Of a stretch of DNA of 64,000 bases, positions 2,851-59,237 are shown piece by piece (position 1 is the first letter of the stretch; every line of letters starts with the position of its first letter). Source of the DNA: an uncultured Bacteroidota bacterium (lineage in GTDB: Bacteria; Bacteroidota; Bacteroidia; Flavobacteriales_F; PHOS-HE28). The notes under the pieces are model-generated. The model did no database searches. It worked only from the letters and a program-made list of their open reading frames with translations, and was not told the origin of the DNA. Made by a program: the position numbers and the translations under genes. Location of the stretch: assembly GCA_902826215.1 (NCBI GenBank), contig CADEDY010000008.1, positions 1 to 64,000 of the forward strand, written 5' to 3'.

Positions 2851-2953
2851 GACTTTGGCGTTGATGGCCCAAAGCAGCGTCGTCGACCAAACGATACCAA
2901 GGACTGTCGAGTCAGCGGTGCGATGCATGAGGGAGCGGTGCGGTGCTCCTGAA

Positions 2954-3049
2954 CGGAGCGCTAAAGGCGCGACTTCATCGCAACATCGACCAGCGTTCGA
3001 TGCTGCCAGGCCACCTTGCGTTAGCGGAGGGCTGAAGGCCCGACCTCAT
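2954..3049. repeat. Two copies of a 25-nt hairpin element with compensatory changes
   Basis: Two 25-nt units, at 2954-2978 and 3025-3049, differ at four positions. Each contains a short inverted repeat: GCGC-TAAAG-GCGC (2958-2970) and GGGC-TGAAG-GCCC (3029-3041). The inner C-G pair of the first copy is a G-C pair in the second, so the stem is preserved. The second copy overlaps the stop codon of the LytTR regulator gene. This looks like a dispersed REP-like element, but only two copies are visible here. Confidence 0.5.
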
Positions 3050-3789
3050 TTCCCCGCCAGCACCTTCAATACTTCCTCTTTCTTCCTCCTGCTGATCTCC
3101 ACACGCGTATTGTTCTTCAGCACCACATGCCCATCGTCGAGGTGGGTGATGGCCGTGCGGTTCACCAACGAGGAGCGGTGTACGCGCAGGAACCCGAGCG
3201 GCACCAGCATGTCCTCATAACCCTTCAGTGTGCGCGCCGAAACGAAGCGACGACCATCGGCCGTGTGCAGCTCGGTGTAATTGTCGTCGGCGGTGCAGTG
3301 GGTCAGTTCCGCAGGGGAAACGAAGTACGTGCGATCGCCGTTGGTGAGCGTGAGTTTCATCGCTTGTTCGTCACGTTGCGCGATGTTGCTCAGGAATTGT
3401 TGCTGCACGACCTGTCGAGCATGCCCGGCCAAGTGCGCTGCGCGGAAGCGTTCCAGCGCCTCGGCGAGTTCATCGGGTTGTACGGGTTTCAGCAGGTAAT
3501 CCAGCGCGCTGAAACGGATGGCTTGCACAGCGTAGCGCTCATAGGCCGTGCAGAAAACGACATCGAAGGGCCAGATTTCCAGCTTGCGCAACAGGTCGAA
3601 CCCGGTACCACCCGGCATCTCCACATCGAGGAAAACGATATCGGGCGAATGACGGGCGATCGCCAGCAGCGCTTCCTGCACGTTGGCGCCTTCACCCATC
3701 ACCTTCACCTCTGGATGCGCTGTTTCCAACAGAGTCCTCAGGTAGTTGCGGTTGTCCGCGCTGTCATCCACGATCAGGGCCTTGATCAT
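3046..3789 (-). CDS. LytTR-family two-component response regulator
   Basis: A 247-aa response regulator. Receiver domain at residues ~1-120: acidic pocket DD near residues 9-10 (ALIVDDS), phospho-acceptor Asp in VFLDVEMPGG, conserved Thr/Ser in FCTAYE and Lys in LLKPVQP. LytTR DNA-binding domain at residues ~150-245 (YFVSPAELTHCTADDNYTELHT, RFVSARTLKGYEDML, FLRVHRSSLVN). The start at 3789 is preferred over an upstream ATG at 3948 because it begins exactly at the receiver domain. A TATCTTCA promoter-like box lies at 3810-3803 on the minus strand. The cognate LytS-type kinase lies immediately upstream (3945-5912), so the two are expected to act as a pair. Target genes are not evident. Confidence 0.93.
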   Translation of the reverse strand: MIKALIVDDSADNRNYLRTLLETAHPEVKVMGEGANVQEALLAIARHSPDIVFLDVEMPGGTGFDLLRKLEIWPFDVVFCTAYERYAVQAIRFSALDYLLKPVQPDELAEALERFRAAHLAGHARQVVQQQFLSNIAQRDEQAMKLTLTNGDRTYFVSPAELTHCTADDNYTELHTADGRRFVSARTLKGYEDMLVPLGFLRVHRSSLVNRTAITHLDDGHVVLKNNTRVEISRRKKEEVLKVLAGK

Positions 3790-3944
3790 CGCATGTTGGT
3801 CGTGAAGATAAACGACGCGTAACACGCGATCGCCACGGACCAGAAAACGCATGCTCTTCGGTGATGCCACCTGGTGAAGTGAAAGCAATGTCCGATGGAT
3901 ACACAAGCGGATCGAGCAAGCGGTCCGGACATCGAGGAAATGGC

Positions 3945-38855: not shown

Positions 38856-41800
38856 ACACAACCGCTGCATATCGCATGGGCCAACGGACCTGGACAACAC
38901 TGGTAGCGACGTTCCTTCTCATTGCGGTCGGTAGTCGTGTCGAAGCCCAGACCAAGACGTTCTCTTCGGATCAAGCGGTGTTCTTGGAGGAGATGACCAG
39001 CTTCATCGTTGAAGCGGACAAGAAAGAAGGTCGGCCGTTCATGGAACAGGTCTTCACACCGGTCTGGAATGGTCCGTATTACAGTGCAGCGCAGCGCACG
39101 CGTATCGTGGAGGTCTCCAACTTCATGGTGAAGAAGCGCTTCGATGCGTTCCCACATTTCCGTGATTTCCTCGCTGCCATCGCGGCATTCCCGAACGGCG
39201 GGCGCAGCCCGGCTGAATTCGATGCCTGGATGCAAGGCATGGACAAGTTGATCCAGAGCGGCCGCAAACAGAACGTAGTGTCCTTCATTGCCACATGTGC
39301 CAACCTCTTCAAGGACAACACCATGTTCTCCAGCGCGAGCACGCAATGGAGAAGCAGCTCCAGTAAGTTCACCTTCGAATTCGACAGCGTACCCAAGGTG
39401 GTATTCCCACGTGCCGACCTGATCTGCACCGCGAAAGGCGACAGCGCGGTCATCAAGGCGACATCGGGAACCTATCTCCCGACCCTGGAGTTGTGGCAAG
39501 GCACAGGCGGGAAAGTGACCTGGGAGCGGGCCGGACTGAAGGCGGCAGCCACCTTCGCCGAATGGTCGCATCCGTACGAGATCAAGATGAAGAGCGCCAC
39601 CTTCGACGTGGACTCCGTGGAATTCAACGATCCGTATTTCGAGCGCACTTTGTTCGGTAGGATCACCGACAAGGTCCTGGCCAACGTGGACAAGGACAAC
39701 GCGAGCTACCCGCGCTTCGAGAGCTACGACCGTCGGATGAAGATCCGCGACATCGCCGAAGGCATCGATTTCGAAGGCGGATTCACCATGCAGGGCGCGA
39801 AGCTGCAAGGCTATGGTACCAAGGACGAACCGGCCTACATGACGTTCTACCGGGACAAACGTCCGTTCATCATCACCAGCGGTACGCTCTTCAGCATCGA
39901 ACCGGAGCGCATCACCAGTGACGATGTGGCCATGCGCCTCCTGCTGGACAAGGATTCGTTGTTCCATCCCAGCGTGAGCATGCGTTTCCTCAAGAAGAAG
40001 AAGCAACTCTCCCTCATCAAGAAGGATGAAGGTCTGGGAAAGGCACCGTTCTATGACACCTACCACGACCTCGATATGTACTTCGAGACACTCACGTGGA
40101 AACAGGGCGATCCACTCGTGCAGATGGGCAATCTGCAAGGGAGTACGCAGACGCGGGCCAGCTTCGAGAGCTTCAATTATTTCAAGGAGAAACGGTACAT
40201 GGGCATGATGGGGATCGATGCCGTGCATCCCTTGGTACGCTTGAATGATTTCAGCAAACAGAACGAAGGGAGGTTCTATGCACAGGAGTTCGCCGTTTTC
40301 AGCAAGATGCAGAAGGATGCCGTGATCCCCATGATCATCGACATGGCGAACAAAGGCTACCTGAGCTATGACCCCGAAACGGAATGGGTCGAAGCAGCAC
40401 CCCGTATGCGGCAACACATCCTCAACAGCGCCGGCAAGCAGGATTATGATGTGCTGCAGTTCAACAGCAACAGCGACAGTGTGAATGCCACCGTGAACCT
40501 GCTCAACTACGACCTCGCGATCATGGGTGTGGCGCGCATCGTGATGAGCGATTCGCAGGATGTGAAGATCTTCCCCAGTGGAAAGCTCGTGACCGTGAAG
40601 AAGGGTCGCGATTTCACCTTCGGCGGTAGCGTGCAAGCGGGAAAACTGCAGTACTACGGGAAAGAGTACTACTTCCATTACGACCCTTTCGTGATCGATC
40701 TGCTCAACGTCGATTCCGTCAGCTTCATGGCGGATAGCTTCGAGAAGAACGAACAAGGGGTGTACACCTTGGTGCGGGTGAAGAACGTGTTGGAGCAGGT
40801 GACCGGCACCTTGGAGATCGACGCTCCGAGCAACAAAAGCGGCATTCAACAAGTGCGGGGACCCGATGGCAAGATGCAGGGCAAGTATCCCGAGTATCCG
40901 AAGTTCAACAGCACGAAGGAGAGCTACGTGTTCTACGACAAGCGCACCATCCAACGTGGTGTGTACAACCGCGACAAGTTCTACTACCGGAGCGATCCGT
41001 TCCAGATCGACAGCTTGGACAACTTCACCAACGCCGGCTTGAATTTCACAGGAACACTTGTTTCCGGTGGCATTTTCCCGGACATCAAGGAGCCGATCGG
41101 TCTGCAACCGGATTATGCGCTGGGTTTCGTTCGCAATACCGGCGAAGCGGGAATGCCTCTCTACGGCAAGAAAGCGCGGTTCACCAGCGAGATCGCCCTC
41201 AATGGCCGCGGCCTGCAGGGAAAGGGTGAACTGGAATACCTCACGACCAAGCTCTCATCGAAGTCACTCGTGTTCTGTCCGGATAGCACGCTCGGCCGGG
41301 CCGATACTCTGGTCAACCGATCCAGTACCAGTCCAAGCAAAGTGCCCGACGTGAATGGTTCCGATCTCTTCGTGCGATTGGAGCCCGCCAAGGATGTCCT
41401 TCGCACCGAGAAGCTGCGCAAACCGATGACGATGTACGGTGGGCAGGCTTTCCTATATGGTCTTACGGATCTGAAGCCGACCGGCATGTCAGGAGCCGGC
41501 ATGGTCGACTTCACCAACGCGACCTTGGCCTCCAAGCTCTTCAGCTTCGAGACCATGCAGATCCACGCAGACACTTCGGATTTCCGTTTGACCGAAGGCG
41601 ACACCTCGAGCATCGCCTTCCGAACGGACAATGTCAACGCGACCGTGAAACTGGATGAGCGTATCGGTGAATTCGTCAGCAACGGTACAGAGACCAAGGT
41701 GGAGTTCCCGGTGAACCAATACATGTGCTACATGGATCGGTTCAAGTGGTTCATGGATCAAGGGGATATCGAACTGGAGAGCGATCGGACCGCTGCTGTG

Positions 41801-43351
41801 GGCAACGAGGACCTTCAACTTTCCGGGTCGAACTTCATCAGCACACGACCGGATCAGGACTCGCTCAGCTTCATGGCACCCAAGGCGCGGTATGACCTGA
41901 AGAAGCACCTGATAACGGCCAGCGATGTCCAATACATCCAGGTCGCGGATGCGTTGGTCACACCGGATAGCATGCGCGTTCGGATCCGCAAGAATGCCGA
42001 GCTCGATCCGCTCACCAACTCGGTGATCACGGCCAACTTCGTCACCAAGCACCACCGCATTTATAACGCCACGGTGAACATCAAGGCGAAGCGGAACTAC
42101 ACGGCAACGGGCGACATCGATTACGTGGATGAGAACAACAAGGCCTTCAAGATCAGCCTGCAGACCATCGCCGTCGATACCGGTTATCAGACCTATGCAC
42201 GTGGTCGCATCACCAAGGAGCAGGACTTCCAACTCAGCCCGGCGTTCGATTTCTTCGGCGATGTCATGCTCACGGCAAGCATCAAGGAATTGAATTTCGC
42301 CGGCAGCACGAGGATCCAACATGGTTGTACCGGTCTGGCCAAGAACTGGATGAAGTTCTCCGGGGCCATCGACCCCTTGGAGGTCTTCATCCCGGTGGCT
42401 GATACCCTCTTCGATGACCAAGGTACGTTGATCGGTGCCGGTGTCTACCTCACGGCCGAGGATCCCTTCAAGACCTACGGCACCTTCTTGAGCCGCACCG
42501 CCGACCGCAAGGACAAGCCGATCATCACGGCGAAGGGCTTGCTGTACTTCGATAAGGACCGCAAAGAGTACATGATCTCCAACAAGGACAAGATCCGGAA
42601 GCGTGATCTGCCGGGTGATCTCGTGAGTTTGGCTGTCGAGAATTGCTTGATCCAAGGCGATGGCCGCATCTCCCACGGCGTGGATCTTGGACGGATCAAC
42701 CTGACGAACGTTGGGGCGCTACGGTTCGAGGCGGAAGAGGAGAAGCTCACGACCAGCGAGGTCATGATCGCGGATTTCCACTTCTTGGACAATGCGCTGG
42801 AGCGGATGGCGAGCGAGATCCTCGCTTACCCCGAACAAAAGCAGGTGGACATCACCAAGACATATTACGAGAAGATGTTGCGGGAGCTGCTCGGCTTGGA
42901 GCGATCCGATAAGCTCATCAGCGAACTCAGCATCAAAGGGGAGATCAAGAAACTACCCGATGAGATCGTGAAGCCGCTGGTGCTCGCCGATGTGAAGATG
43001 CGTTGGGATGGACCGGAACAAAGCTGGATCAGTGAAGGCCCGATCGGCATCGCCAGCATCCTCAAGAAGCCGCTGTATCGCTATGTGAAAGGCAAGATCC
43101 ACCTGGAGCGCAAGCGCAGTGGCGACATCATGACCATCTACTTGGCGTTGGACGATCAGAGCTACTACTTCTTCCAGTACTCGCGGAACTACCTCTACGC
43201 GTACAGTAGCGATTCGAGCTTCAATACCATGTTGACGGAAGTGAAGGACGACAAACGTCAACTCGATAGCAACAAGGAACTGGTGCCCTACCAGTACATA
43301 CTCACCAACAAGAAGAAGGTCGACGACTTCCGCGAACGCTTCGGACTTTGA
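38852..43351 (+). CDS. Very large secreted protein of unknown function (1499 aa)
   Basis: No family is recognised. The start is the ATG at 38852, overlapping the prmA stop; MGQRTW at 38876 is an alternative. A signal peptide is present (hydrophobic TTLVATFLLIAVGSRVEAQ). The frame stays open a further 203 codons upstream inside prmA, but that is out of frame with prmA and unrelated. The protein is rich in beta-strand-like alternation with repeated phrases such as ...ITSGTLFSIEPERITSDD, LQGYGTKDEPAYMTFYRDK, LNGRGLQGKGELEYLTTKLS and ATGDIDYVDENNKAF. There is no T9SS tail, lipobox, Cys pattern or membrane helix beyond the signal. Its place before plsY suggests an envelope role. Resemblance to LptA/OstA-like beta-jellyroll repeats is only an impression. 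Confidence 0.8.
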   Translation: MNTTAAYRMGQRTWTTLVATFLLIAVGSRVEAQTKTFSSDQAVFLEEMTSFIVEADKKEGRPFMEQVFTPVWNGPYYSAAQRTRIVEVSNFMVKKRFDAFPHFRDFLAAIAAFPNGGRSPAEFDAWMQGMDKLIQSGRKQNVVSFIATCANLFKDNTMFSSASTQWRSSSSKFTFEFDSVPKVVFPRADLICTAKGDSAVIKATSGTYLPTLELWQGTGGKVTWERAGLKAAATFAEWSHPYEIKMKSATFDVDSVEFNDPYFERTLFGRITDKVLANVDKDNASYPRFESYDRRMKIRDIAEGIDFEGGFTMQGAKLQGYGTKDEPAYMTFYRDKRPFIITSGTLFSIEPERITSDDVAMRLLLDKDSLFHPSVSMRFLKKKKQLSLIKKDEGLGKAPFYDTYHDLDMYFETLTWKQGDPLVQMGNLQGSTQTRASFESFNYFKEKRYMGMMGIDAVHPLVRLNDFSKQNEGRFYAQEFAVFSKMQKDAVIPMIIDMANKGYLSYDPETEWVEAAPRMRQHILNSAGKQDYDVLQFNSNSDSVNATVNLLNYDLAIMGVARIVMSDSQDVKIFPSGKLVTVKKGRDFTFGGSVQAGKLQYYGKEYYFHYDPFVIDLLNVDSVSFMADSFEKNEQGVYTLVRVKNVLEQVTGTLEIDAPSNKSGIQQVRGPDGKMQGKYPEYPKFNSTKESYVFYDKRTIQRGVYNRDKFYYRSDPFQIDSLDNFTNAGLNFTGTLVSGGIFPDIKEPIGLQPDYALGFVRNTGEAGMPLYGKKARFTSEIALNGRGLQGKGELEYLTTKLSSKSLVFCPDSTLGRADTLVNRSSTSPSKVPDVNGSDLFVRLEPAKDVLRTEKLRKPMTMYGGQAFLYGLTDLKPTGMSGAGMVDFTNATLASKLFSFETMQIHADTSDFRLTEGDTSSIAFRTDNVNATVKLDERIGEFVSNGTETKVEFPVNQYMCYMDRFKWFMDQGDIELESDRTAAVGNEDLQLSGSNFISTRPDQDSLSFMAPKARYDLKKHLITASDVQYIQVADALVTPDSMRVRIRKNAELDPLTNSVITANFVTKHHRIYNATVNIKAKRNYTATGDIDYVDENNKAFKISLQTIAVDTGYQTYARGRITKEQDFQLSPAFDFFGDVMLTASIKELNFAGSTRIQHGCTGLAKNWMKFSGAIDPLEVFIPVADTLFDDQGTLIGAGVYLTAEDPFKTYGTFLSRTADRKDKPIITAKGLLYFDKDRKEYMISNKDKIRKRDLPGDLVSLAVENCLIQGDGRISHGVDLGRINLTNVGALRFEAEEEKLTTSEVMIADFHFLDNALERMASEILAYPEQKQVDITKTYYEKMLRELLGLERSDKLISELSIKGEIKKLPDEIVKPLVLADVKMRWDGPEQSWISEGPIGIASILKKPLYRYVKGKIHLERKRSGDIMTIYLALDDQSYYFFQYSRNYLYAYSSDSSFNTMLTEVKDDKRQLDSNKELVPYQYILTNKKKVDDFRERFGL

Positions 43352-43354
43352 ACC

Positions 43355-44005
43355 ATGCAATTCCCTTGGGTGTACGGCATAGCATCGATGGTGATCGCCT
43401 ATCTGATCGGCAGCATCCCGACCAGCGTTTGGTGGGGCCGGGCCTTCTTTGGTGTGGATGTGCGCGAGCATGGCAGCCACAATGCCGGTGCTACGAACAC
43501 ATTCCGCGTGCTCGGGCCCAAGGCCGGTGTGCCCGTACTGCTCATCGACATCCTCAAAGGCTTCATACCCGTGCGGATACTCCCCAATTTCACCGACCTG
43601 CAACCCGACGACGCTCCATGGATGTGGTTCCGTGTTGCGCTCGTGGGCGCTACCGTGATCGGACACCTCTACCCGGTCTTCGCAGGCTTCAAAGGGGGCA
43701 AGGGAGTAGCAACCTCATTGGGCGGTGTGCTGGCCGTGCATCCAGGTGCAGCTGGCGTCTGTATCGCTGTATGGGCCATGGTCTTTTTCCTCTCCCGCTA
43801 CGTTTCGCTGGGGTCCCTTTGCGCTGCGGTCTCCTTTCCGATAGCGGTTGCACTGATCTGGAACGATTCCAGTCCTGTGAAGATCGGCTTCGCCATCGTG
43901 CTCTGCGCATTGGTCTTCTTCACACACCGCGAGAACATCGGGCGTTTGATCAAAGGCACCGAGAACCGCATGTCCCTCGGAGGGCAAAGGGACCTACCTT
44001 CATGA
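43355..44005 (+). CDS. plsY: Glycerol-3-phosphate acyltransferase PlsY
   Basis: A 216-aa integral membrane enzyme that transfers an acyl group from acyl phosphate to glycerol 3-phosphate, the first step of phospholipid synthesis. The three PlsY motifs are visible: SIPTSVWWGRAFFGVDVREH with GSHNAGATN, LIDILKGFIPV, and GHLYPVFAGFKGGKGVATSL. The last ~60 residues add the final helices (LALIWNDSSPVKIGFAIVLC region). Length is normal. It starts 3 bp after the 1499-aa gene, so the prmA / 1499-aa / plsY run is likely one transcript. Confidence 0.97.
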   Translation: MQFPWVYGIASMVIAYLIGSIPTSVWWGRAFFGVDVREHGSHNAGATNTFRVLGPKAGVPVLLIDILKGFIPVRILPNFTDLQPDDAPWMWFRVALVGATVIGHLYPVFAGFKGGKGVATSLGGVLAVHPGAAGVCIAVWAMVFFLSRYVSLGSLCAAVSFPIAVALIWNDSSPVKIGFAIVLCALVFFTHRENIGRLIKGTENRMSLGGQRDLPS

Positions 44006-44052
44006 AACCCCAAACACTGAAACAGGGTACAAGCGCCCACTCGAAGGAATGA
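44002..44052 (+). CDS. Possible 16-codon ORF overlapping both neighbours
   Basis: ATG at 44002 overlaps the plsY stop (ATGA). The ORF encodes MKPQTLKQGTSAHSKE, and its TGA overlaps the ATG of the 2211-aa gene (ATGA again). A TACCTTCA box (43995-44002) directly precedes it. It could couple translation of the giant gene to plsY. Coding evidence is otherwise absent. Confidence 0.3.
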   Translation: MKPQTLKQGTSAHSKE

Positions 44053-47000
44053 CCCGCGCAACGGGCATAGTTGTTTGCTTGCTTTTCGCTGCCCTCGCCT
44101 CCGCGCAAGGGGATCAGCAAGTGCGTTCAAAAGCCGATGGGCTTTTTGAAGAGAAGGACTATGTGCATGCCCTGCCGCTGTATAGCCAACTGGTCAGTCT
44201 CACCCCTTCGGACAGGGTCCTCAATTACCGATTCGGTACGTGCTTGCTCTTCGGTGGCGATGACAAGGACAAGGCCATCGGTCACCTGAAGTTCGCAGTT
44301 CAGGATCCTAGCATTCCTGCTGATGCATGGTACTGGCTGGGCCGGGCCTACCACCTCAACTACCAGTTCAAGGATGCCCAGGCCGCCTATCAGCGGTACC
44401 AAGGAACCGGAAGCAAGAAGGAACTGGAAGGCTTTTCCGTGGCAGCCCTGGATAAGCAATGCCGGAACGGACAACAACTCCTGAGCAACCTCAAGGAGAT
44501 CACCGTGCGGAACAAGGTGGAAGTGGACGAGACGGAGTTCTTCCGATTCTATGAACTCGCCGACATCGGTGGAAAGATCGTCGTGCTGCCGGAAGAGTTG
44601 AAGAGCAATCTTGATAAGAAGAGCAAGGAACGCACGCTGGTCTACCTGCCCGACAAGGGCGGTGCCTTCTTTTTCGCCAGCTATGGCAAGGATGGAAAGA
44701 CCGGCCGCGACATCTATCGGACCGAGTTGATGCCCGATGGGACCTTCGCGACGCCGATCAAATTGGCCGGCTATGTGAATACGGATCAGGATGAGGATTT
44801 CGCCTTCCTCCATCCCGACGGAAAGAGTTTCTACTTCAGCAGCAAGGGCCACAACAGTATGGGTGGCTATGATGTGTTCCGCTCCGCCTTCGACAGGGGC
44901 TTGGACACCTTCGGCCCACCGGAGAATCTGGACTTCGCGGTGAACACGCCGGACGATGACCTCTTCTACATGACCGATGCCGAGAACAAGGAAGCTTGTT
45001 TTGCCAGTGGTCGGGACAGCGAACAAGGCAAGCTCCATGTGTACCGGGTGGGTACGGCCCAAGTACCACTTGTCATTACCGTGCTCAAAGGCACTTTCGC
45101 CAGTGCGTTCGATCCGAACGATCGCAAAGCACACATCAAGGTGGAAGATGCCGTTACGCGTGAACGTGTCGCGGATGTGCGCACTGATCAGAATGGTCTG
45201 TATGTGCTGGCCTTGCCGCGCAGTGGACAGTTCCGCTACTTGGTGGAATGTGGTCCATCGGGCCGAACCCATGTCGGCATCGTGGATGTCCCTCGTTCGT
45301 CCTCACCGCGTGCTTACCGCCAAGAATTGGAACTGACCAAACAAGGAGATCTGGAGAAACTCGCCATTCGGAATTACTTCGATACGCCTCTCGAGGAGGA
45401 CATGTTGGCGCTGATGATGGAGGAGATCAAGCGCCGAGCGAAACTGGATATCACCAGCGAGACACCGGTGGTCGCCTCCTCGGAGCCTGAACCCTCCATT
45501 GCTTCGGATCCTTTGACCCAAGCGGGCTTCGCTGGCGATGTCACCGAAGCACAAGCGGTGAGCATGGCGAAGAAGGACGCCGCGGAACAGGAACTCCTGA
45601 TGAAGGAGTTGGAGGAGCAGAGCGAGCAAGCATTCGGCATTGCAGTGGGATCGGTTGCGGATGCGGAACGCATGGCACGCGAGGCGGAGGCCTTGGTGAA
45701 TGCAGCCAGCGCTATGACCGATGAGGAGGCACGCAGCGCGAAGATGGTGGAGGCGGCATCGTTGCGTCAACGATCCCGCGAAGCGAACTTGCGGGCGCGC
45801 GCAGCCTATCGTACAGGGCAGGACATGACCACCGAACGGTTGGCCACGCAGCAGCGTGCTGCCGCAGCGTCGAAGCTGGCAATGGACCTGGAGAATGCCG
45901 TGACGGCCAAGAAACCGAACGAAACGGTCACACACCTGAAGACCCTGAAGCAACGCCTCGATACCAAGGCAGGTCCGGATGGTGACCTGACCATGGCAGA
46001 ACGCGCGCGACGGACCCTTTCTGAACAGGAGAAGGAAGCGGCACGCAACCTCACGATGGCGAACAGCAAGAGGACGGAAGAGAACGAATTCATGGACCGC
46101 ATCGCGCGATCTGAACGTGAATTGGCCGAGACCAAGAACAAGTCGCGCAAGGATGAACTCGCACGACAGATCACCCAGGAGAAGCAACAGCTGGCGTACC
46201 TCCACGATGAGGTCGAAGGAGCATTCACCAAAGCGCGAGGTTTGGAGCATGAAACCTCTGTGCTTCGCGGGGAGCACGCCTTGACCCGGTACCTCACGGT
46301 GGGAGAGAAGCATACAACGGCGACGGAATTGTCCAAGGAGCAGGTGGCTGGTCTGGGACAACGTATCGCAGGTGCCGATAGCCGCATTGCCTCCATTCCG
46401 ATCGATCAGCGCTACGATGCGATGGTCACCACGAATACAGCTGATGTGGAAGCGCGCTCTTTCAATTGGGGTGCGGATCCTGGAATGGCCACTGCCGATG
46501 CCCGTTCTGTTGCGACACAAGCCCAACAGCGCGATGCTTCGCGTGATGCGGAACGTGCGAATGCGCGCACGGTGGCGACACCGACCGGTGATCTCGCGCA
46601 AGGAGAGGTGCGTTCCGGCGCGCAGGATGGAACGACCACAGTTCGTGGGAATGAGGATCTCGCCAATGCCGGTAGTGCGGTGGGGCAACTCAATACTGAG
46701 GTGGAAGGAGCCGAAGACCAAGTCTCCACGACCGACCCTGTCAATAACGGTGCGAATGACGGTGCGACGGAACGAGCAGTGGATGCCACGGCCATGCAGT
46801 CCGGAACAGGAACCACCGAACGGACGGAAAACGCTTCGAGTGTTGAACCGGTATCATCCGAACGGTCGATCGGAGCCTACGGTCAGGACAGATCGGGAAC
46901 CGATGTTGTTGCAAGTGCTGCGATCCCAAAGAATGCGTCGACCGATCAGGATCGCACTGAGCCTGTAGGTTCAACTGCCGAGGAGCAGGAAGGCCCAAGC

Positions 47001-50000
47001 GTATCGCAGCCTTCTGAAGTTTCCGCTCCACGTGCAGCCGAGGAACAGCGCGAACTCGATGCGTTCTTGTTGGAGAACCAGAAGGCCGAATTGCAACAAG
47101 CACTTGCTGCACAGCGGAAGAGCGAGATCCGCGACAGCTTGCAGCAGATGATCGATCAGGTGGATGCGCGTTTGCAAGCCAACAACGCAACGGCAACAAC
47201 CTCAAGGGACGAAACGGGTACGGCAGATGACTACTCCATGGAAGATGTGGACATGGACCGCATGCCGGCTACCTTCTATGCCGAGACCAAGGATGAGGAC
47301 ATCATCACCATGGTCTTCTCGGACTATGAGAGCGATAAACAGCGTTTGCAAGGCCTCGATGAGGCCAACGCGCGACTGCAAGGGTTGAGCGGACTGGAAC
47401 TGATGTTGGCCGATAGCTTGCGCGGCGAATTGGTCCGCCAAGCCGCTGTGCTGGAATTGGCGCCTGAGCGCGGCGAGCAGATCCTGCCTAAGATGGAACG
47501 TTTGCGTGTGATGCGTCAGGATCATTTGAACCGGGCCGAAACTTTGAAGCGGGAGGGCGAAGAAGTGATCCTGAGCCGCACAGCCGTCGGGGACGATGTT
47601 CGCTCGGAGGTCGTTCAGCGCACGCGTGTCAACTATGCGTTGGGTGAACATCCTGTGAACGATCGCTTCATCGCCGTGGTGCCTGATGCGCAAGAGATCT
47701 ACACAAGTAAAGTGGAACACCGATCGTCGAAAGTCGATGAAGCGGTTTCCATGAAGGAAGCCGATCTGGTCCGCATGCAAGTGCTGGATGAGCAGATCGA
47801 CGCGCTCGAGGATTCCATGGTAGGCAAGCCTCGTAAAGACTATGATAAGTTGCGTAAGAGTACCGACAAGCTCATCGACGAGCGCATGATCATTCGCGCT
47901 GAACTGGGGCAACGCAGTGCGTTCCTCATGAAGGAAGAATGGCGCACCGCGAACGATAGCCTCAAGCGAGTGGACAAGACGATGGCGACCAAGGGTCTTG
48001 CTCCCGACGAGAACCTGTTGATGATGGCGCAAGGCATGCAGACCGAAGCGCGCGCACTCTTCACGAAGGCAGAAGGGTTGCGCAAGCAAGCCGATCGTAG
48101 CGAGGATATTCTGCTTCGCGACAGTCTGTTCCGCACGGCCTACGGATCGGAACTCGAAGCCTTGGCGCAGATCGATCGGGCCATCACCGTGAAGACCTAT
48201 CTCATCAGCGACGAATTCCAACGCGGCGAGACCTTGGCCTACGAGACCATCGCGCGCCGGGTCCTTGGCATCGACGAACCGCAACTCGCGCAAGCCACAC
48301 CTGCTGGAACTTCGATCACGACCACGGCTGCATCCGAAGGCTCCGATGCTCGGGTGGAGGTTGAGCCGGCCGTCTCGATCGCAACACGGGCCGAGTCCGA
48401 AGAACCGGCCTCGAACGTGGAACCATCCACCGCAGTTGCTGCAACAGTCGGAGAGAACTCCGACGCAACCACCACGGTTGCTGAGCGGACCGAACCCAAC
48501 GAAGTACCCAGCACTGTCGTCGGTGAAGTTGCTTCATCAACAGCTGCCGCGGGCGATACCGAGCGCGCGCGCATGGAGGCGCGGGAATTCGCCAACCGGA
48601 CAGAAGCCCAATTGCCTGTGGATGCGCTCAAGCCGATCAAGCGGTACGAGGATTACCTGAAAGGGGAGAACATCGTCCTGCGTCAAGAAGGACTCGACCC
48701 GAACAACGATCCGCAATTGCTGGCGATCAAGGCGGAACGTGCTGCGGCAACGAGTTCAGAATTGGAACAGCGTTCGTTGGAACTCGCGGATCAGGCAACA
48801 GCCATCGAGGATAGCATGACCACCGCTCGCAAGCGCGACCGTGAGGAATTGGAACAACTGGCTGCTCGTACCCGCATCGAGTCCGATTCCTTGCATGAAG
48901 CATCGTTGCGTTTGGCAGAAGAAGCGCGTGCCACTGAGCTCGAGAAGCGCGACGCAGAACAGGCCAAGGTGTTGCGCGATCGCCTCGTGAAGTACTACTA
49001 CTTGACCGGCGAAGAACAAGCCATGGTCGTCGGGAACGAGGATGAGAGCCGCTACTTCCAAGCCAAAGCACGGGCTTTGGAGCAGTACGATGCCGCCGCA
49101 GATGCCGAAGGATCCGCTCGCATCAACCGGGAGTTGAGCACGGTGCTAGCGAACGAGATCGCCACGGTAAAGCGGGATCAAGCTGCCGGTCGCCTGACAC
49201 CGGATGAGGCCCAAGCGAAGAACGAAGTGCTCACCGCCCGTGCCGACCAGTTGGCCGCTCGTGCCGATTCACTGACCAATGTAGCCGCTCGACTCCGTGG
49301 TGCCGCTGGTATCAACGAGAACCAAGCTGCCGTGATGCTGCAAGGGCTCCCTGCCGATCGCTCCTCCGAGACCATGGCCTTGGAAATGCGTACGCGCCGC
49401 ACCGAAGCCCTGTTGGCTGAAACACGCGATCAAGCCGGACCTGGAGCAGCCGTGCCGAATGCGTCCAGTGGCAATGTGGCATCCGCTCTCCCGGCATCCG
49501 ATGCGTCTTCGAACTCGGGTGCTACAGCTTCTGCTCGACCGACCCGCGCGATCACTGCACCCTTCGGGACCGACGGTCGTGCCGCAGCTGAACGCGCCGC
49601 ACGTCCGATCGCTGAAGTACCTGAACTGTTCGATGGCAGTGCCTTCCCCGAACAGTTGGTCAATGACATCTTCGCGTTGCGTCCCACAGCGGAGCGCGCT
49701 GCAACGCCGATCCCCATGGATGTGCGCATGCCTTCAGGTCTGGTCTTCAAAGTCCAGATCGGCGCCTTCCGTAAACCGATCCCTGAGGAGGCCTTCAGCG
49801 ATATGACCCCGGTGATGGGCGAACACACGTCCAACGGATTGGTGCGTTACACCGCCGGACTGTTCACCGGATTCGATCAGGCGGCCGGTGCCAAGGACAA
49901 GGTGCGTGATCGTGGCTATCGCGATGCCTTCGTCGTGGCCTACCGCGATGGCGTGCGGATCCCGTTGGCCGAAGCGATGCGCCAATCGCGCGCTGCAGCC

Positions 50001-50684
50001 AATAGCAGCGAAGTCCTCGCGGTCGCAACGCCCGTCCAAGTCGCGAGCGGATCGCAGTCCAATGCGAGCTCCACGGGCAATGGCAACGTGACACCGTCCA
50101 TCGCGACCAACGTTTCCACGGAGCCTGTGACCGCACCAAGGACCGAAGGCAACAGCGTGTTGGAGCCTCGCCCCACGAGCATTAGCGCAACATCGGGTGT
50201 TCAACCGGCCGTCATTCAAGCGCCTCTCAGCACAGCTGCGACCACCACGCCAGCGACCACGACCTCCACGAACGTTCTGGACAAGTATCCAGCAAGCGCA
50301 GAAGCCATCGTCGCTCAATTCGTACCACAGCCTGAAGCCACCGCGTACTACAACGTGCCAGGTGCTGCACCAGCTGATCAGGTGGAGTTGATCCGCGGAC
50401 TGTTCTACACCGTGCAGGTCGGTGTGTACAGCAAGCCGGTTGCTCTGGACAAGCTGTTCAACATCGTTCCGCTGAATAGCGAGCGCACCGAGACCGCCAA
50501 GATCCGCTACACCACCGGTCGCTACGGCGATACCGAACAAGCACGCATCCGCAAGGACCAAGCAGTTGCTTCGGGTGTGAAGGATGCCTTCATCACCGCT
50601 TACCTCAATGGCAAGCGCATCCCCATGCAAGAGGCTGCAGCCCTGCTCGAACGCTTCGGCGCCGATATCCTGGCAAAGCCCTAG
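44049..50684 (+). CDS. Giant PorE-like protein: TPR, PD40 propeller, regulatory domain, coiled coils, two SPOR-like domains
   Basis: A 2211-aa exported protein with signal peptide (MTRATGIVVCLLFAALASAQ). Domain order: TPR-like repeats (~20-130, EEKDYVHALPLYSQLVSLTP); PD40/WD40-like propeller blades (~195-340, TDQDEDFAFLHPDGKSFYFS); a carboxypeptidase-regulatory-like domain (~340-412). Long Ala/Glu/Arg-rich coiled coils follow (~450-800, ~1010-1470, ~1510-1800), split by Ser/Thr/Ala-rich low-complexity linkers. Two C-terminal SPOR-like domains come last (~1897-1975, VFKVQIGAFRKPIPEEAFSD; ~2117-2200, FYTVQVGVYSKPVALDKLFN). The first three domains in this order are those of PorE, a T9SS periplasmic protein, but the OmpA-like peptidoglycan-binding domain of PorE is absent. 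SPOR domains bind denuded peptidoglycan, so a wall-anchored role is inferred. Confidence 0.88.
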   Translation: MTRATGIVVCLLFAALASAQGDQQVRSKADGLFEEKDYVHALPLYSQLVSLTPSDRVLNYRFGTCLLFGGDDKDKAIGHLKFAVQDPSIPADAWYWLGRAYHLNYQFKDAQAAYQRYQGTGSKKELEGFSVAALDKQCRNGQQLLSNLKEITVRNKVEVDETEFFRFYELADIGGKIVVLPEELKSNLDKKSKERTLVYLPDKGGAFFFASYGKDGKTGRDIYRTELMPDGTFATPIKLAGYVNTDQDEDFAFLHPDGKSFYFSSKGHNSMGGYDVFRSAFDRGLDTFGPPENLDFAVNTPDDDLFYMTDAENKEACFASGRDSEQGKLHVYRVGTAQVPLVITVLKGTFASAFDPNDRKAHIKVEDAVTRERVADVRTDQNGLYVLALPRSGQFRYLVECGPSGRTHVGIVDVPRSSSPRAYRQELELTKQGDLEKLAIRNYFDTPLEEDMLALMMEEIKRRAKLDITSETPVVASSEPEPSIASDPLTQAGFAGDVTEAQAVSMAKKDAAEQELLMKELEEQSEQAFGIAVGSVADAERMAREAEALVNAASAMTDEEARSAKMVEAASLRQRSREANLRARAAYRTGQDMTTERLATQQRAAAASKLAMDLENAVTAKKPNETVTHLKTLKQRLDTKAGPDGDLTMAERARRTLSEQEKEAARNLTMANSKRTEENEFMDRIARSERELAETKNKSRKDELARQITQEKQQLAYLHDEVEGAFTKARGLEHETSVLRGEHALTRYLTVGEKHTTATELSKEQVAGLGQRIAGADSRIASIPIDQRYDAMVTTNTADVEARSFNWGADPGMATADARSVATQAQQRDASRDAERANARTVATPTGDLAQGEVRSGAQDGTTTVRGNEDLANAGSAVGQLNTEVEGAEDQVSTTDPVNNGANDGATERAVDATAMQSGTGTTERTENASSVEPVSSERSIGAYGQDRSGTDVVASAAIPKNASTDQDRTEPVGSTAEEQEGPSVSQPSEVSAPRAAEEQRELDAFLLENQKAELQQALAAQRKSEIRDSLQQMIDQVDARLQANNATATTSRDETGTADDYSMEDVDMDRMPATFYAETKDEDIITMVFSDYESDKQRLQGLDEANARLQGLSGLELMLADSLRGELVRQAAVLELAPERGEQILPKMERLRVMRQDHLNRAETLKREGEEVILSRTAVGDDVRSEVVQRTRVNYALGEHPVNDRFIAVVPDAQEIYTSKVEHRSSKVDEAVSMKEADLVRMQVLDEQIDALEDSMVGKPRKDYDKLRKSTDKLIDERMIIRAELGQRSAFLMKEEWRTANDSLKRVDKTMATKGLAPDENLLMMAQGMQTEARALFTKAEGLRKQADRSEDILLRDSLFRTAYGSELEALAQIDRAITVKTYLISDEFQRGETLAYETIARRVLGIDEPQLAQATPAGTSITTTAASEGSDARVEVEPAVSIATRAESEEPASNVEPSTAVAATVGENSDATTTVAERTEPNEVPSTVVGEVASSTAAAGDTERARMEAREFANRTEAQLPVDALKPIKRYEDYLKGENIVLRQEGLDPNNDPQLLAIKAERAAATSSELEQRSLELADQATAIEDSMTTARKRDREELEQLAARTRIESDSLHEASLRLAEEARATELEKRDAEQAKVLRDRLVKYYYLTGEEQAMVVGNEDESRYFQAKARALEQYDAAADAEGSARINRELSTVLANEIATVKRDQAAGRLTPDEAQAKNEVLTARADQLAARADSLTNVAARLRGAAGINENQAAVMLQGLPADRSSETMALEMRTRRTEALLAETRDQAGPGAAVPNASSGNVASALPASDASSNSGATASARPTRAITAPFGTDGRAAAERAARPIAEVPELFDGSAFPEQLVNDIFALRPTAERAATPIPMDVRMPSGLVFKVQIGAFRKPIPEEAFSDMTPVMGEHTSNGLVRYTAGLFTGFDQAAGAKDKVRDRGYRDAFVVAYRDGVRIPLAEAMRQSRAAANSSEVLAVATPVQVASGSQSNASSTGNGNVTPSIATNVSTEPVTAPRTEGNSVLEPRPTSISATSGVQPAVIQAPLSTAATTTPATTTSTNVLDKYPASAEAIVAQFVPQPEATAYYNVPGAAPADQVELIRGLFYTVQVGVYSKPVALDKLFNIVPLNSERTETAKIRYTTGRYGDTEQARIRKDQAVASGVKDAFITAYLNGKRIPMQEAAALLERFGADILAKP

Positions 50685-50766: not shown

Positions 50767-51054
50767 ATGTCCATGCGCAACCAGTTCTCTCCGGAGGAAC
50801 TTCTGCTCGAGGAGGTTCTCTGCGAGACCGGCCCGGTCCGTGAGATCGTGCTGCACAACGATGATGTGAACACTTTCGATCATGTGATCCTCTCCCTGAT
50901 GGAGGTCTGTGATCATGAGCCCATCCAAGCCGAACAATGCGCTTGGATCGTACACAACAACGGTAAGTGCAGCGTGAAACGCGGCACCTTCGACCAGCTC
51001 GAAGCCCGTTGCCATGCCCTGCAGGACCGGGGGCTTTCCGCTGTGATCCAATAG
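50767..51054 (+). CDS. clpS: ATP-dependent Clp protease adaptor ClpS
   Basis: A 95-aa adaptor that delivers N-degron substrates to ClpAP/ClpCP. The core REIVLHNDDVNTFDHVILSL carries the family's hallmark N-D-D-x-x-T/N-F motif. HNNGKCSVKRGTFDQLEARC completes the Clp-binding surface, and LSAVIQ ends the protein. The N-terminal ~20 residues are the usual flexible arm. Length is normal. It is probably co-transcribed with the M48 protease gene that starts 3 bp downstream, an apt grouping of proteolysis genes. No clpA is nearby. Confidence 0.96.
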   Translation: MSMRNQFSPEELLLEEVLCETGPVREIVLHNDDVNTFDHVILSLMEVCDHEPIQAEQCAWIVHNNGKCSVKRGTFDQLEARCHALQDRGLSAVIQ

Positions 51055-52773: not shown

Positions 52774-52804
52774 GCAAAGCGCCGCAAGGCGCTTTGTGCA
52801 TTTT
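52774..52804 (+). terminator. Intrinsic terminator after tRNA-Arg
   Basis: CAAAGCGCC-GCAA-GGCGCTTTG is a 9-bp perfect stem with a GCAA tetraloop, followed by TGCATTTT. It lies 8 nt past the tRNA. Confidence 0.85.
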
Positions 52805-53056
52805 GGGAGGTCGTGGTGCCGTACAGTGCATCTGCGTTCTTGTGCAAGTGGAACCGGCGGGCGGTCCCAAAGCCCCCCGAGCGGCTATTCGCCCAAGGTC
52901 AAATTCGAATTGGCTTCGCTATACGTCCGTCGTGGATTATTACGGTTCCATTGGCTGGTATTTCCTGTCCGTCGAAACATTTCGACGCTGGGCCGAGTAC
53001 AACGCCCCGCTGAACACAGCTCTAGACCAATGGAAAGAACCTCGAACTCTCCCTCA

Positions 53057-56000
53057 ATGACAGGTCGCTTCTTGCGCCCAATGCTTACACTGGCCTTGCT
53101 GCTGGTGTTGGTGGCCGACGCGCTACCGCAGATCTCCCAGACCTTCACCGCGAACGGCACCTATACCGTGCCTGCAGGGGTGACTCAGGTGACCGTTGAA
53201 TGTTGGGGAGGTGGTGGACAAGGCAGTTCCCGCAGTTCATCCGGGCGAGGAGGTGGAGCCGGTGGTGGTGCTTATGCGCGAAGTGTACTAGCTGTAAGTC
53301 CAGGTAACTATACCGTGACCGTCGGCCAAGGAAGTAATTCAACCGCCCCAGGAGGCGATTCTTGGTTCGGAACCTCAACAACGATCCTTGCTAAAGGAGG
53401 AGGTTCTGCGGCCAATAACAGTACGAACGGCGCTACCGGTGGCTCTGCTGCGGCCAGCATCGGAACGGTGAAGTTCGGTGGTGGCGATGGCGCTGACGCT
53501 TCAGGGACGGCCGGTGGAGGAGGTGGTTCGTCCGCTGGAAATGCCGCGAACGGTGTTGATGCAACAAGCGTCAACGGAGCTACTGCTCCTGCGGGAGGCG
53601 GTGACGGTGGAGATGGCCGAGATGGTAACGGCAATGGATTCAACGGCTCTGCTCCGGGCGGTGGCGGTGGCGGTGCGGAACGAACCAGTGGTACTCGTAG
53701 TGGCGGAGACGGCGGCGATGGTCAAGTCATCGTCACGTACGACTACCCGAATGGACTGTGCATGGCTGCGGTTTCCTACAATGCACTCCCCGACAACGGC
53801 TGCGCTTCCAGCAACAACCTGGTCGTTCCCGTGGCGATCAGCGGCTTGCCGACCACCCTCGGAACTGGCGCCGGCAACGCCCGCCTGGAAAGCGTCGAGG
53901 TGATCGTCAGTCATACCTACAACCGCGATATCCACATCAGCCTTACAGCGCCCGGCGGCGTTACCCGTAACCTCATCCTCGACCGTTTCGGGAACGGGGA
54001 TAACCTCGGTAACCCTGCTGCTTGCCCAGGATCCCCTTTGATCTTCCTGGACGGAGGAACAGCCTTGACGGCGACCAATACCAGCAATGTCACCGGTACC
54101 TATGCCCCGGAAGAGACCCTTGACGGCTTCGCCGGAAACCCGAACGGCAACTGGACCTTCACCATTTGTGACAATGAAGCGCTAGATACCGGTAACCTCC
54201 GGTACTTGAAGCTCAACTTCTGCACCGTCCCACAGATCACCGCAGCCACCAGCAACAGCCCGATCTGTGCCGGCGGTAGCCTCAGCCTCAGCGCCACGGC
54301 AACGGGTACGGCTCCTTTGATCTACGCCTGGACCGGTACTGGCACCTACAGCCCAGACGCGGCCAATGCAACCCCAACCGTTTCCGGCGCAGAATCAGGC
54401 AATTACAACATCACGGTCAGCAACGGTTGCGGTTCCACGAATACCGATGTGGCGGTCACCGTTACCACCCCGGCTTCCGCGACGATCAGCTACGGTGGTC
54501 TTCCGTTCTGCCAAGGGGCAGGTACGGCCTCCGTTACCCGCACGGGCACCGCCGGAGGTAGCTATACTGCTACGCCTGCGGGACTTACCCTCGACAACAG
54601 TACCGGTCTCGTGACCCTTGGTTCCAGTTCGACGGGTTCCTATACCGTGACCTATACCGTCCCGGCAGCAGGCGGATGTCCCTTGTTCTCGACCACGGCA
54701 GGTATCACCATCAACACCACCCCGGTCCGCTACCAGGATCAGGACGGCGATGGATTCGGTGACCCCGCGAGCTTCATAACCTCCTGTACCCCAGTAGCTG
54801 GGTACGTGAGCAACAGCACGGACAACTGCCCAACGCTCTTCGGCCTTATCGGCGATGCCTGCGATGATGCCGATGCCAATACCACCAACGACCTGATCAA
54901 CGGCTCCTGCGTGTGCGCCGGAACCAACACGCCTTGGTACAGCCAAGGAAGCGGAACGGCCGGTGATGCCATCTGGAGCCACAACATCGGTGGTCCAGGA
55001 GGGGCGGCAACGTTCAATTCCAATTCGATCGTGATCGTGCAAGCGGGTCATTCTGTCAGCTTGGTCGGTAATACCGATGTGAATGATCTGACCCTAGCGG
55101 CCACCTCGACCCTGACCTTGGGTTCGAATACGCTGACCGTACATGGTTCAAGTGCTCAGATCAACGGATTCCTCGGCGGTGGAACCGGAACCATGGTCAT
55201 GCAACCCGCTTCGAGTGCTACTTTAAGTGGATCAGGTACATTGAATCTCAATAACCTGACCATCAATGCTCCAACTGGTGTTACTTGCAGTGCCAATGCA
55301 GGCATTCGGGGAACCTTGTTGCTCAGCGATGGCGTCTTCACAGCAAGTGGTGTCGTGAGCTTGGTGAGCAACGCTTCCGGCACCGGTCGTCTCGGTCCAG
55401 TAGCGGCTACGGCTTCCTATTCCGGCAACCTCACCGTGAACCGTTTCATTCCCGCAGGTGCGACGAATTGGCGGATGTTGGGCAGCTCGGTGAGCGGCCA
55501 AACGGTGGATGATCTGAAGGACGATTTCTTCACCGCTGGCTTCCCCGGATCCCACTATCCCAACTTCTTCAACCCGATCAACAGTGGCATCTTCTGGCCA
55601 AGCATCCGTTGGTACGATGAGACCAATACCGGCGCAGCGGTCATAAACGGGTTGACCGGCGCGACCAGCAACACCCAAGCCATGGCAACGGGTCAAGGCT
55701 TCGCGGCCTGGTCCGGCAGCACGTTCGCCACAACCACGGCCTTCACGGTGGACATGACCGGTGTGCCGAACGTGGCCAGCAGCCCGATCGCCTTGCCGAT
55801 GTCCTACACCAACACCGGCGTGCCTGCCACCGATGGCTGGAACATGGTGAGCAATCCACTTCCAAGCCCGATCGCCTTCGATCAGATCAGCCGAGGTAGC
55901 GATGTGGAGGATTTCATCACCTACTTCGATCCCGCAACAGGGAACAACGCAACGTGGGATATCAGCCTGGGCATTGGTCTGAACAATGGCACGAACACCG

Positions 56001-57520
56001 TCCAAAGCAGCCAAGGCTTCTGGTTGAAGGCCGTTGGTAGCAACGTGACCACCACCGTGAGCGAAAGCGCAAAGGTGGCCGACAACACCGGCGGTTTCTT
56101 CGGTGGCGACCAGGAGCAGACCGCCAATATCGTGCGCCTGCAGATCTCCAGTTCCATGAACCAATACAGCGACGAGACCCTCGTGGTCTTCAGCGAAGGG
56201 GCTCCCGAGACCAACGGTGACGACGTGCCGAAGTTCGTCTTCGCACACCCCGAGGCACCGCAGATCGCGACCGTGGGCGACGAAGGCCAGATGATCGCCA
56301 TCAACGCCTATGGACCCTACACCATCGACATCAGCATTCCTGTGATGGTGGACGTGGCTATCAATGGCGACTACACGATCACCGCTAACGGATTGAATCT
56401 CATAGGCTTGAGCTGTGTGCGACTGGAGGATCTGGCCTTGAACATCAGCACCCCGCTGGTGGAAGGCGCTTCCTACACCTTCACCGCTTTGGCCAACGAT
56501 GATCCGAACAACGTGCGCTTCATCCTGCATGCCAGCGCTCCGCTCCAATTCAGCACCACCGCAGCCAGCTGTGCGGGTCGCGATGATGGTGCCGCCAGCG
56601 TCGAGATCGGTAGCGGTCCGGTGGACATCCTGTGGATGGATGCCAACGGCATCGTGCTCCTCGAACAGAACGGGGTACAGGCCGGACCGAGCGAAATCGT
56701 CGCCTTGGAAGCCGGTGAGTACAGCATCAGCATCACCAGCACCGCTGGTTGCGGTAACCTGGTGCAGGCCTTCGCCATCGACGAGCCGACCGGCTTGGAA
56801 GTGCAGGCCGATGCCATGCCGACCAGCTGCCCCGAGTCCGAGGATGGTACCATCGACCTGATGGTGCTGGGCGGAAACGCACCCTACACCTACCTCTGGA
56901 GCAACGGTGCCACCGACAGCGCCATCGAAGTGGCGGCCGGTACCTACACCGTGGAGGTCACCGATGCCAACGGATGCAGCCTGGCACCGCAAGAGTACCT
57001 CGTGAGCGCAGGTGAAGGCCCCGAGGCCGGCATCTCCGTGGAAAGCGTGAGCGTGATGGTAGGGGATGAGGTCACCTTCTTCGTCGCTACGGCGATCGGG
57101 GTATCCAACACCTGGGACTTCGGCGACGGCAACACGAGCACCGAGTTGGAGCCTACACACACCTACGATACTCCGGGCAACTACACCATCACCCTCACGG
57201 TGGATGACGGCACCTGCACCAGCATCGCCGAACTGGAACTGACCGTGGAGACCACCACGGGCCTACCGACCGTCGTCGGCCAAACCCTCAATGCCTGGGT
57301 GAGTGGCGACGTGATCGTGATCGACCACAACTTCAACGACAACCAGCCCGTGCTCGTGCGCGTACTCAGCACCAACGGCCAACTGGTTCAAGAACACCGC
57401 TTCGCCGGACAGCCAGCACGCCTTACTCTCCCAACGGCCGAATTGGCCACGGGCGTCTGGCTGGTCCGGATCAGCAGCGGCCCAAGCGCAAGGACCTTCT
57501 CATTGCCCGTGGTGCACTAG
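53057..57520 (+). CDS. Multidomain T9SS cell-surface protein (glycine-rich, P-domain, PKD)
   Basis: A 1487-aa exported protein. The start at 53057 gives a signal peptide ([20 protein letters not shown]); an ATG at 53030 is also possible. The long open frame back to 52796 crosses the tRNA terminator and is rejected. Order: glycine-rich domain (~30-230, [20 protein letters not shown]); proprotein-convertase P-like domain (~240-390); Ig-like modules; a thrombospondin-type-3-like calcium segment (DQDGDGFGD, ~560). A beta-helical DUF-like stretch shared with the third gene comes next (~620-1030). Then a shared module (~1039-1160, [20 protein letters not shown]), SprB-like repeats, a PKD domain ([12 protein letters not shown], ~1353) and a type A T9SS tail ([13 protein letters not shown]...[11 protein letters not shown]). 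Probably an adhesin or structural surface protein. Confidence 0.9.
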
Positions 57521-57569: not shown

Positions 57570-57725
57570 TTGCGTTCCACCCCTCCGGTCATGGGCGCTT
57601 TCGGCCGGTCGGTCCACGCCGCAATGGGCGCTGGTCGAATGGTTCGGTGCCGAATGGAACCCTGCACCACCGGCCGCGTAGCATCACGCAGCAGGGCTTC
57701 CCTGTGCCACTCAACCCGAAGGACC

Positions 57726-59237
57726 ATGCGAAACACGTTACTCCTCGCCAGTGTACTGTCACTCCTCTCGGCCAAGGTCGTGGGGCAGTCCCCCTCGATC
57801 GCTACCCATTTGCCAGGCTCGCCTGCCGCCGTAGCGCAAGGTGCCACCGGCTTCGTTCGGCTCCACGTTGCCAATGCGGCCGGTAACCTCAGCGACGAGG
57901 CGCTCATCGTCTTCTACAGCGGAAGCCCGGCCACCGATGGGGAAGACGTGCCCAAGTACACCTTTTCGCACCCGACCGCTCCGCGCATCGCCACCACCGG
58001 TGATGGAGCCGTGCTCCTGGCGATCAATGCCTACGGATCCTACACCGCCGAGATCGCCATTCCCGTGATGCTCAAAGTGGCCACCAACGGACCCTACACC
58101 CTCACCATCACCGGGCTGGATGGGGTAGGGCTTACCTGCCTCACCTTGGAAGACCCCGTTGCGGCCATCACCACGACGCTGCAGGAAGGCACCACCTACA
58201 CCTTCGACGCCTTGGCCAACGCACCGCCCGAAGTAGCCCGCTTTGTGCTGCACGGCACGGCCCCGGTTCCGCTCGATGTGCAGAACCCCACCTGTGCCGG
58301 AAGCACGGATGGCATGGCCACGGTGGAACTCCTGAGCGGGCCCGCTGACGTGGTCTGGTCCAGTGGCGACACCGAACTGGCCTCCGCGAGCGGTGTGTTC
58401 AGCGGACCGGTTAGCAGCCCGGCCTTGGGCGCAGGGTCCTACGAGGTGCGCGTCGAAGGCCTGACCGTCTGTGGGACCTTGCGCGCCGCGATCGACATGG
58501 TCGAGCCAGATCAACTCGTTGCGGATGTCAATGTGCAGGACCCGGTCTGTGCGGGTGAAGAGGGCAACGTCACCGTTCTGGCGAGCGGTGGCACGGCACC
58601 CTATGCATACAGCTGGTCGACCGGCCAGATCGGAAGTGCAGAGCATATCCCTTCCGGAGCAGTTACCATCCAGGTCTCCGATGCCAACGGCTGTGCCTTG
58701 CCACCGATCCCCGTCGAGGTGGCGGAGGGCGTTTCCCCAGAAGCCGTCCTGATCGTGGACGAACCGAACATCGCTGTCGGCGCTGCCCTGTCGCTTTCCA
58801 GCGGAAGTGACCCGGATCTGGCGCATCTCTGGGACCTCGGCGATGGCACCACGAGCACCGAACTCGCACTCGAGCACACCTACGCCGCCCCGGGTACCTA
58901 CGTGGTTTCCCTCACGGTGAATGACGGCACCTGCAGCAGCACCACCACCGTGACCATCACCGTGGGTGCGACCACCGGGCAGGCCGAGCAGACCACACAA
59001 ACCACCCGGGCCTGGTACAGCAACGGCTCCATTCTGGTGGAACATGCCTTCAACAACGAGCTACCCGTATACGTGCGGGTGCTGAGCGTGACCGGCCAGG
59101 TCCTGTACGACGGGCGCTATGCAGCCACCCCCGCCCGCATCACCGTGACCAACGAGCCGCTCACCACCGGCGTCTGGTTCGTGCAGGTCGCCAACGCCAC
59201 CGATCTGCGGACCTTCCGGATCCCAGTGTCGCGGTAA
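57726..59237 (+). CDS. Shorter T9SS surface protein, paralogue of the C-terminal third of its neighbours
   Basis: A 503-aa exported protein (signal MRNTLLLASVLSLLSAKVVG; ATG at 57726). Earlier in-frame ATGs lie in the region after the upstream terminator and are rejected. It contains only the shared end modules: DEALIVFYSGSPATDGEDVP (~35-190), SprB-like repeats (GGTAPYAYSWSTGQIG), a PKD domain (HLWDLGDGTTSTELALEHTY) and a type A T9SS tail (PVYVRVLSVTGQVLYDGRYA...LTTGVWFVQV). It lacks the large N-terminal domains of the genes on either side, so it may be a deletion derivative or a compact paralogue. A terminator hairpin follows at 59257-59283. Confidence 0.9.
   Translation: MRNTLLLASVLSLLSAKVVGQSPSIATHLPGSPAAVAQGATGFVRLHVANAAGNLSDEALIVFYSGSPATDGEDVPKYTFSHPTAPRIATTGDGAVLLAINAYGSYTAEIAIPVMLKVATNGPYTLTITGLDGVGLTCLTLEDPVAAITTTLQEGTTYTFDALANAPPEVARFVLHGTAPVPLDVQNPTCAGSTDGMATVELLSGPADVVWSSGDTELASASGVFSGPVSSPALGAGSYEVRVEGLTVCGTLRAAIDMVEPDQLVADVNVQDPVCAGEEGNVTVLASGGTAPYAYSWSTGQIGSAEHIPSGAVTIQVSDANGCALPPIPVEVAEGVSPEAVLIVDEPNIAVGAALSLSSGSDPDLAHLWDLGDGTTSTELALEHTYAAPGTYVVSLTVNDGTCSSTTTVTITVGATTGQAEQTTQTTRAWYSNGSILVEHAFNNELPVYVRVLSVTGQVLYDGRYAATPARITVTNEPLTTGVWFVQVANATDLRTFRIPVSR

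Follow-up and report, generated by a model that had tools for sequence, protein, structure and literature searches.

A conserved long protein of Bacteroidia that joins a PorE-like head to tandem SPOR domains

Introduction

The closest described system is PorE of P. gingivalis, which connects peptidoglycan to PorP, a barrel of the outer membrane (PMC7192894, PMC9143113), and which binds small amounts of PorK/PorN besides PorP (PMC9143113). A link between the outer membrane and the wall has also been proposed for CHU_0125, a Pal-like protein of Cytophaga hutchinsonii. Vesicle release goes up sixfold in a chu_0125 deletion mutant, whose outer membrane is also weakened (PMC5891637). Both proteins end in an OmpA-like tail. 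A different wall-binding domain, SPOR, occurs singly in the inner-membrane proteins FtsN, DamX and DedD; it is also found in the wall enzymes RlpA and CwlC and in proteins that are not confined to the septum. Denuded glycan is contacted in RlpA by residue Q270, and three arginines that form a basic patch are required as well (PMC6895207).

Here we describe a protein family that resembles PorE in carrying a signal peptide, TPR, PD40 propeller and carboxypeptidase-regulatory domain in that order, followed by a wall-binding C-terminus. It differs from PorE in that 2-4 SPOR domains replace the OmpA-like tail and head and tail are separated by some 800 to more than 2000 additional residues; the focal member, moreover, lacks a lipid anchor and has a shorter propeller. 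With CHU_0125 it shares the TPR/PD40 head, but CHU_0125 is short and OmpA-tailed whereas the focal protein is long and SPOR-tailed. The SPOR fold and the glycan-contact glutamine are shared with FtsN, DamX, DedD and RlpA (E. coli and others) and with B. subtilis CwlC; unlike in those proteins, the SPORs here form a tandem on a giant protein whose head is of outer-membrane type. No description of the family was found in the open-access papers searched, and it is apparently undescribed, though conserved across many Bacteroidia.

Results

The open reading frame and its family

The window analysed here is a stretch of 64,000 nucleotides from an uncultured Bacteroidota bacterium; all features of it given below are on the + strand. 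Positions 44049-50684 (+) form a single uninterrupted frame of 2211 aa. The first 60 nucleotides (44049..44108) encode a type-I-like signal peptide (...ALASA-QGDQQ), read from the sequence, without a lipobox. A lipobox is likewise absent from 71/72 intact homologues. The focal protein is therefore not a PorE-type lipoprotein, and it is probably exported to the periplasm in lipid-free form. Weak Pfam matches to Tli4_N, Plug and HTH_3 were judged to be due to chance.

Loci came from genomes of the genus and of the class and from public genomes. We recovered 72 distinct intact homologues with the head, a helical middle and 2-4 C-terminal SPORs; this set was selected on the head plus at least two SPORs, so that counts of 72/72 describe intact members and not all relatives. 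The homologues rule out a lone or chimeric ORF or an assembly artefact, and the arrangement as a whole, being common to all 72, is well above chance. Their middle is mostly ~1000-1500 residues long (full range about 770-2340), and several lineages outside the focal genus have a third, more divergent SPOR. Most records are Flavobacteriales MAGs, with some from the cultured relatives Fluviicola and Brumimicrobium. At E<=1e-100 the head was found in 129/296 sampled Bacteroidia genomes and 62/165 genera, a few of these matches being shorter second copies.

Two loci (L045 5881-10620 and L048 5972-9523) encode shorter proteins with the same head and with SPORs degenerate or missing, and may represent a diverged branch of the family. 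One record (L093, CP034120.1), titled Glaciecola amylolytica THG-3.7, holds a copy that is Fluviicola-like and lies in the same gene order; its organism name looks wrong.

The PorE-like head

The head begins with a TPR domain (residues 22-150, 44112..44498), recognised by weak Pfam TPR_2/TPR_19 matches, by a profile match to PorE-like paralogues and by TPR structures. A shortened PD40 propeller region follows (~residues 155-335, 44511..45053; Pfam PD40 2.6e-5), with three recognisable PD40-type repeats, and it is here that the curated models for PorE (NF052230) and CHU_0125 (NF053607) match. The carboxypeptidase-regulatory-like domain (~residues 338-430, 45060..45338) is placed by the alignment to PorE-like paralogues, which runs through it; in homologue L038, Pfam CarbopepD_reg_2 matches below its cut-off. 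Pfam and profile alignment thus agree with the preliminary description, made from the sequence alone, that these three domains stand in the order seen in PorE.

When a profile of 19 family heads was compared by hhalign with one built from five PorE-like paralogues of the focal genome, they aligned over 424 columns with 100% probability and E=2.6e-61. On this alignment the ~440 N-terminal residues are homologous to PorE/CHU_0125 proteins. The alignment stops before the OmpA domain, and it contains a gap of roughly 90 columns where the focal propeller is shorter than that of the PorE-like proteins, so the head may not have kept PorE's partner. The best curated matches are CHU_0125 (3.5e-20; 72.1 bits against a curated cut-off of 620) and PorE (3.4e-18; 65.3 bits, partial, against a cut-off of 600), both covering the propeller only and neither reaching its cut-off. 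These two apart, the head matched nothing but short generic TPR models, and no family was found that fitted it better than PorE-like proteins.

The OmpA-like domain had been reported missing, and Pfam finds none in the focal protein. Moreover, when the PorE-like protein encoded in the genome was used as query, its OmpA domain matched 0/72 members at E values up to 10, while its head matched 54/72. The focal protein falls outside PorE in three respects: its model score, its lack of an OmpA tail and its lack of a lipid anchor.

The helical middle

The middle had been taken for ~1450 residues of coiled coil. An AlphaFold2 model rules out one continuous coiled coil, predicting instead helical modules separated by low-confidence, disordered linkers. 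Over residues 612-1800 the helices are mostly 20-55 residues long and are grouped into modules with pLDDT above 90. Module I (residues ~500-790, 45546..46418; modelled over residues 612-790, otherwise placed by composition) is the most conserved block of the middle. It is followed by a poorly conserved linker of ~200 aa (46419..47030). Module II (residues 995-1406, 47031..48266) and module III (residues 1498-1795, 48540..49433) both exceed pLDDT 90 over most of their length, and between them lies a second linker of ~90 aa (48267..48539; pLDDT 30-37). The model gives a pLDDT of about 25-40 for both linker stretches (~808-994 and ~1411-1497), and of 25-40 for linker 1. A third linker (49434..49724), assigned on low confidence and composition, leads to the first SPOR and, like the linker between the SPORs, is S/T/P/A-rich. 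Counting these, ~520 residues are predicted, or judged by inference, to be flexible. A Foldseek search with the middle returned nothing significant, only generic helical bundles.

A span of hundreds of angstroms had been suggested. Such a reach is possible through the linkers, but the protein is no rigid rod. From lineage to lineage the length of the middle also differs about threefold, and this speaks against a precise ruler.

The SPOR tail and the wall

Two SPOR domains, earlier placed from near residues 1897 and 2117, were located at residues 1893-1981 (49725..49991) and 2113-2203 (50385..50657), joined by an S/T/P-rich linker (49992..50384; pLDDT 47-60 over most). Pfam SPOR (PF05036) supports the first, scoring 19.6 bits on the focal segment, just below the 21-bit cut-off, and 29.3 bits in homologue L038; it matched all 21 of the 21 homologue C-terminal regions scanned, at best with 1e-16. 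An AlphaFold2 model of the C-terminal 354 residues, made with 56 sequences, gives two domains of beta-alpha-beta-beta-alpha-beta topology with pLDDT about 85-98 (above 85 for SPOR1, 85-98 for SPOR2). The top structural match in both Foldseek and VIA-align is the SPOR of CwlC (Foldseek probability 1.00, VIA-align Z 8.1), with RlpA near the top (Z 6.5); DedD (Z 5.0), DamX (Z 4.9) and FtsN come lower, in one or both lists, and weaker matches also include PII-like proteins. This search mainly tests SPOR1, SPOR2 being barely covered. Both repeats score 125-134 bits with a family SPOR profile, but the two are themselves among the sequences behind it, so that independent support comes from the homologues, Pfam and the structural prediction. 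The two tandem domains are genuine SPORs.

By structural alignment offset, RlpA Q270 corresponds to Q1903 in SPOR1, and the matching residue of SPOR2 is Q2123. An equivalent glutamine is present in 72/72 first repeats and 72/72 second repeats. The arginine of the RY motif that follows it is 97-98% conserved in the 72 proteins and is likely the equivalent of RlpA R309, one of the arginine set R302/R309/R311. The tandem SPORs would accordingly be expected to bind peptide-stripped (denuded) glycan.

These features bear on whether the protein might be a general stabiliser of the outer membrane and peptidoglycan in the manner of CHU_0125 or Pal, with no role specific to division. Its SPOR tail would then bind wherever glycan is denuded, and its loss would lead to a leaky outer membrane and vesiculation. 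Such a role would suit the curated matches of the head, the phenotype of the chu_0125 deletion and the M48/BepA-like protease encoded downstream. However, it is SPOR, not OmpA, that has been kept in the 72 full-length members, and the glycan-contact glutamine is invariant, which together point to denuded glycan rather than to wall bearing stem peptides. We regard a general stabiliser as unlikely, if worth serious attention.

Other proteins of the focal genome carry SPORs of the family's subfamily. One is an Amidase_3 protein with a C-terminal SPOR (L139, G000:C20, 951-2291). Two further secreted SPOR proteins adjoin each other at L138 (G000:C21) 1273-4862, the first of 701 aa, in which a thrombospondin type 3 repeat accompanies three SPORs, the second of 485 aa, DUF11-like, with one SPOR.

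Gene neighbourhood

The gene order is tpiA, prmA, an unnamed gene of ~1500 codons, plsY, the focal gene, clpS, an M48 protease gene and DUF218. The glycerol-3-phosphate acyltransferase gene plsY (43355..44005; Pfam 8.9e-57, and synteny) and clpS (50767-51054; Pfam ClpS 3.4e-18) flank the focal gene directly, and a ClpS-like gene directly follows it in 34/79 loci. The neighbours plsY, clpS, prmA and tpiA are largely housekeeping genes and count against an envelope tether. Among the neighbouring genes none was recognised as a T9SS structural gene, and none adjacent to the focal gene as PorP-like. Further along the window, the products of 52796-57520 and 57570-59237 (+) match Por_Secre_tail slightly under the curated cut-offs, carry SprB repeats and PKD domains, and are likely T9SS cargo.

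The unnamed upstream gene (38858..43351), a conserved neighbour, encodes a secreted protein of ~1497 aa with no match in Pfam, NCBIfam or PDB. It occurs in 240/296 Bacteroidia genomes, in most of them matched over its full length, and is thus a near-universal unnamed protein of the sampled Bacteroidia. It is a possible partner of the focal protein. Among the 115 genomes for which the positions of both genes were listed, it lies immediately upstream in 52, from 13/30 families, and in some the two genes adjoin without plsY between them. This adjacency could mean that the focal protein is chiefly a structural partner of the ~1500-aa protein in envelope building, wall binding being secondary. Yet the neighbour is far commoner than the focal gene (240/296 against 129/296), which indicates that it works without the focal protein, and adjacency is missing in 17/30 families. 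We consider this very improbable.

Relationship to the T9SS

A link to the T9SS or gliding machinery had also been raised in the preliminary description. The focal protein could be an accessory anchoring such an assembly to sites of wall remodelling, in parallel with PorE. The homology of the head to PorE, with its binding to PorP and PorK/PorN, makes this conceivable, as do the SprA and two copies of GldM in the genome and the window genes with T9SS sorting signals. Against it, the genome already encodes a full-length PorE-like protein (L007), found on checking for a standard PorE; this aligns end to end with the PorE model, its best model, at 478.7 bits, below the cut-off of 600. A CHU_0125-like protein (L008) is present as well. 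No T9SS structural gene was recognised nearby, as noted, and the focal gene is missing from the majority of the sample, although SprA occurs in 288/296 genomes and GldM in 143/149. Since these markers are near-universal, a test of T9SS dependence by co-occurrence was uninformative; since they are so with or without the focal gene, the focal protein is not a core T9SS part, and its distribution argues against a general requirement in T9SS secretion. The T9SS or gliding link is therefore weak, and we think an accessory role of this kind quite unlikely.

Discussion

What best remains of the earlier proposal is a probable link between the outer membrane and the site of wall remodelling. We favour, with a probability of roughly 0.55, the reading that the focal protein is a lipid-free periplasmic tether whose head holds a partner in the outer membrane and whose tail holds denuded peptidoglycan, mainly that of the septum; its partner, septal location and function are here inferred. 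The signal peptide would export the protein to the periplasm, where the PorE-like head would dock on an outer-membrane partner, by homology with PorE most plausibly a PorP-like barrel or a barrel-containing assembly. The predicted helical modules and disordered linkers would act as a long flexible spacer. The tandem SPORs would hold peptide-stripped glycan made by amidases, for example by the genome's own SPOR-bearing Amidase_3 protein. Division sites are where denuded glycan is concentrated, and it is at the septum or young poles, therefore, that the protein would fasten outer membrane to wall.

Such a tether would do at the septum what the OmpA-tailed PorE and CHU_0125 do along the whole wall, in a genome where no TolB_N or TolA family match was detected (the E. 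coli control was positive). TolB/Pal resembles it, by analogy only, in pairing a PD40-type propeller with wall attachment in the service of outer-membrane attachment, but consists of two proteins with OmpA-type wall binding. A more speculative and rather doubtful extension is that the family is dedicated to tethering the outer membrane of Bacteroidia at the division site. One polypeptide would then stand in functionally for the TolB-Pal branch, holding the outer membrane during constriction to septal wall that amidases have processed, possibly together with the ~1500-aa neighbour.

The family illustrates the reuse of PorE-type heads with different wall-binding tails. Moreover, little is known of how the outer membrane keeps up with the constricting wall in Bacteroidota, and the focal protein is a concrete single-gene candidate for this, testable in cultured relatives such as Fluviicola and Brumimicrobium.
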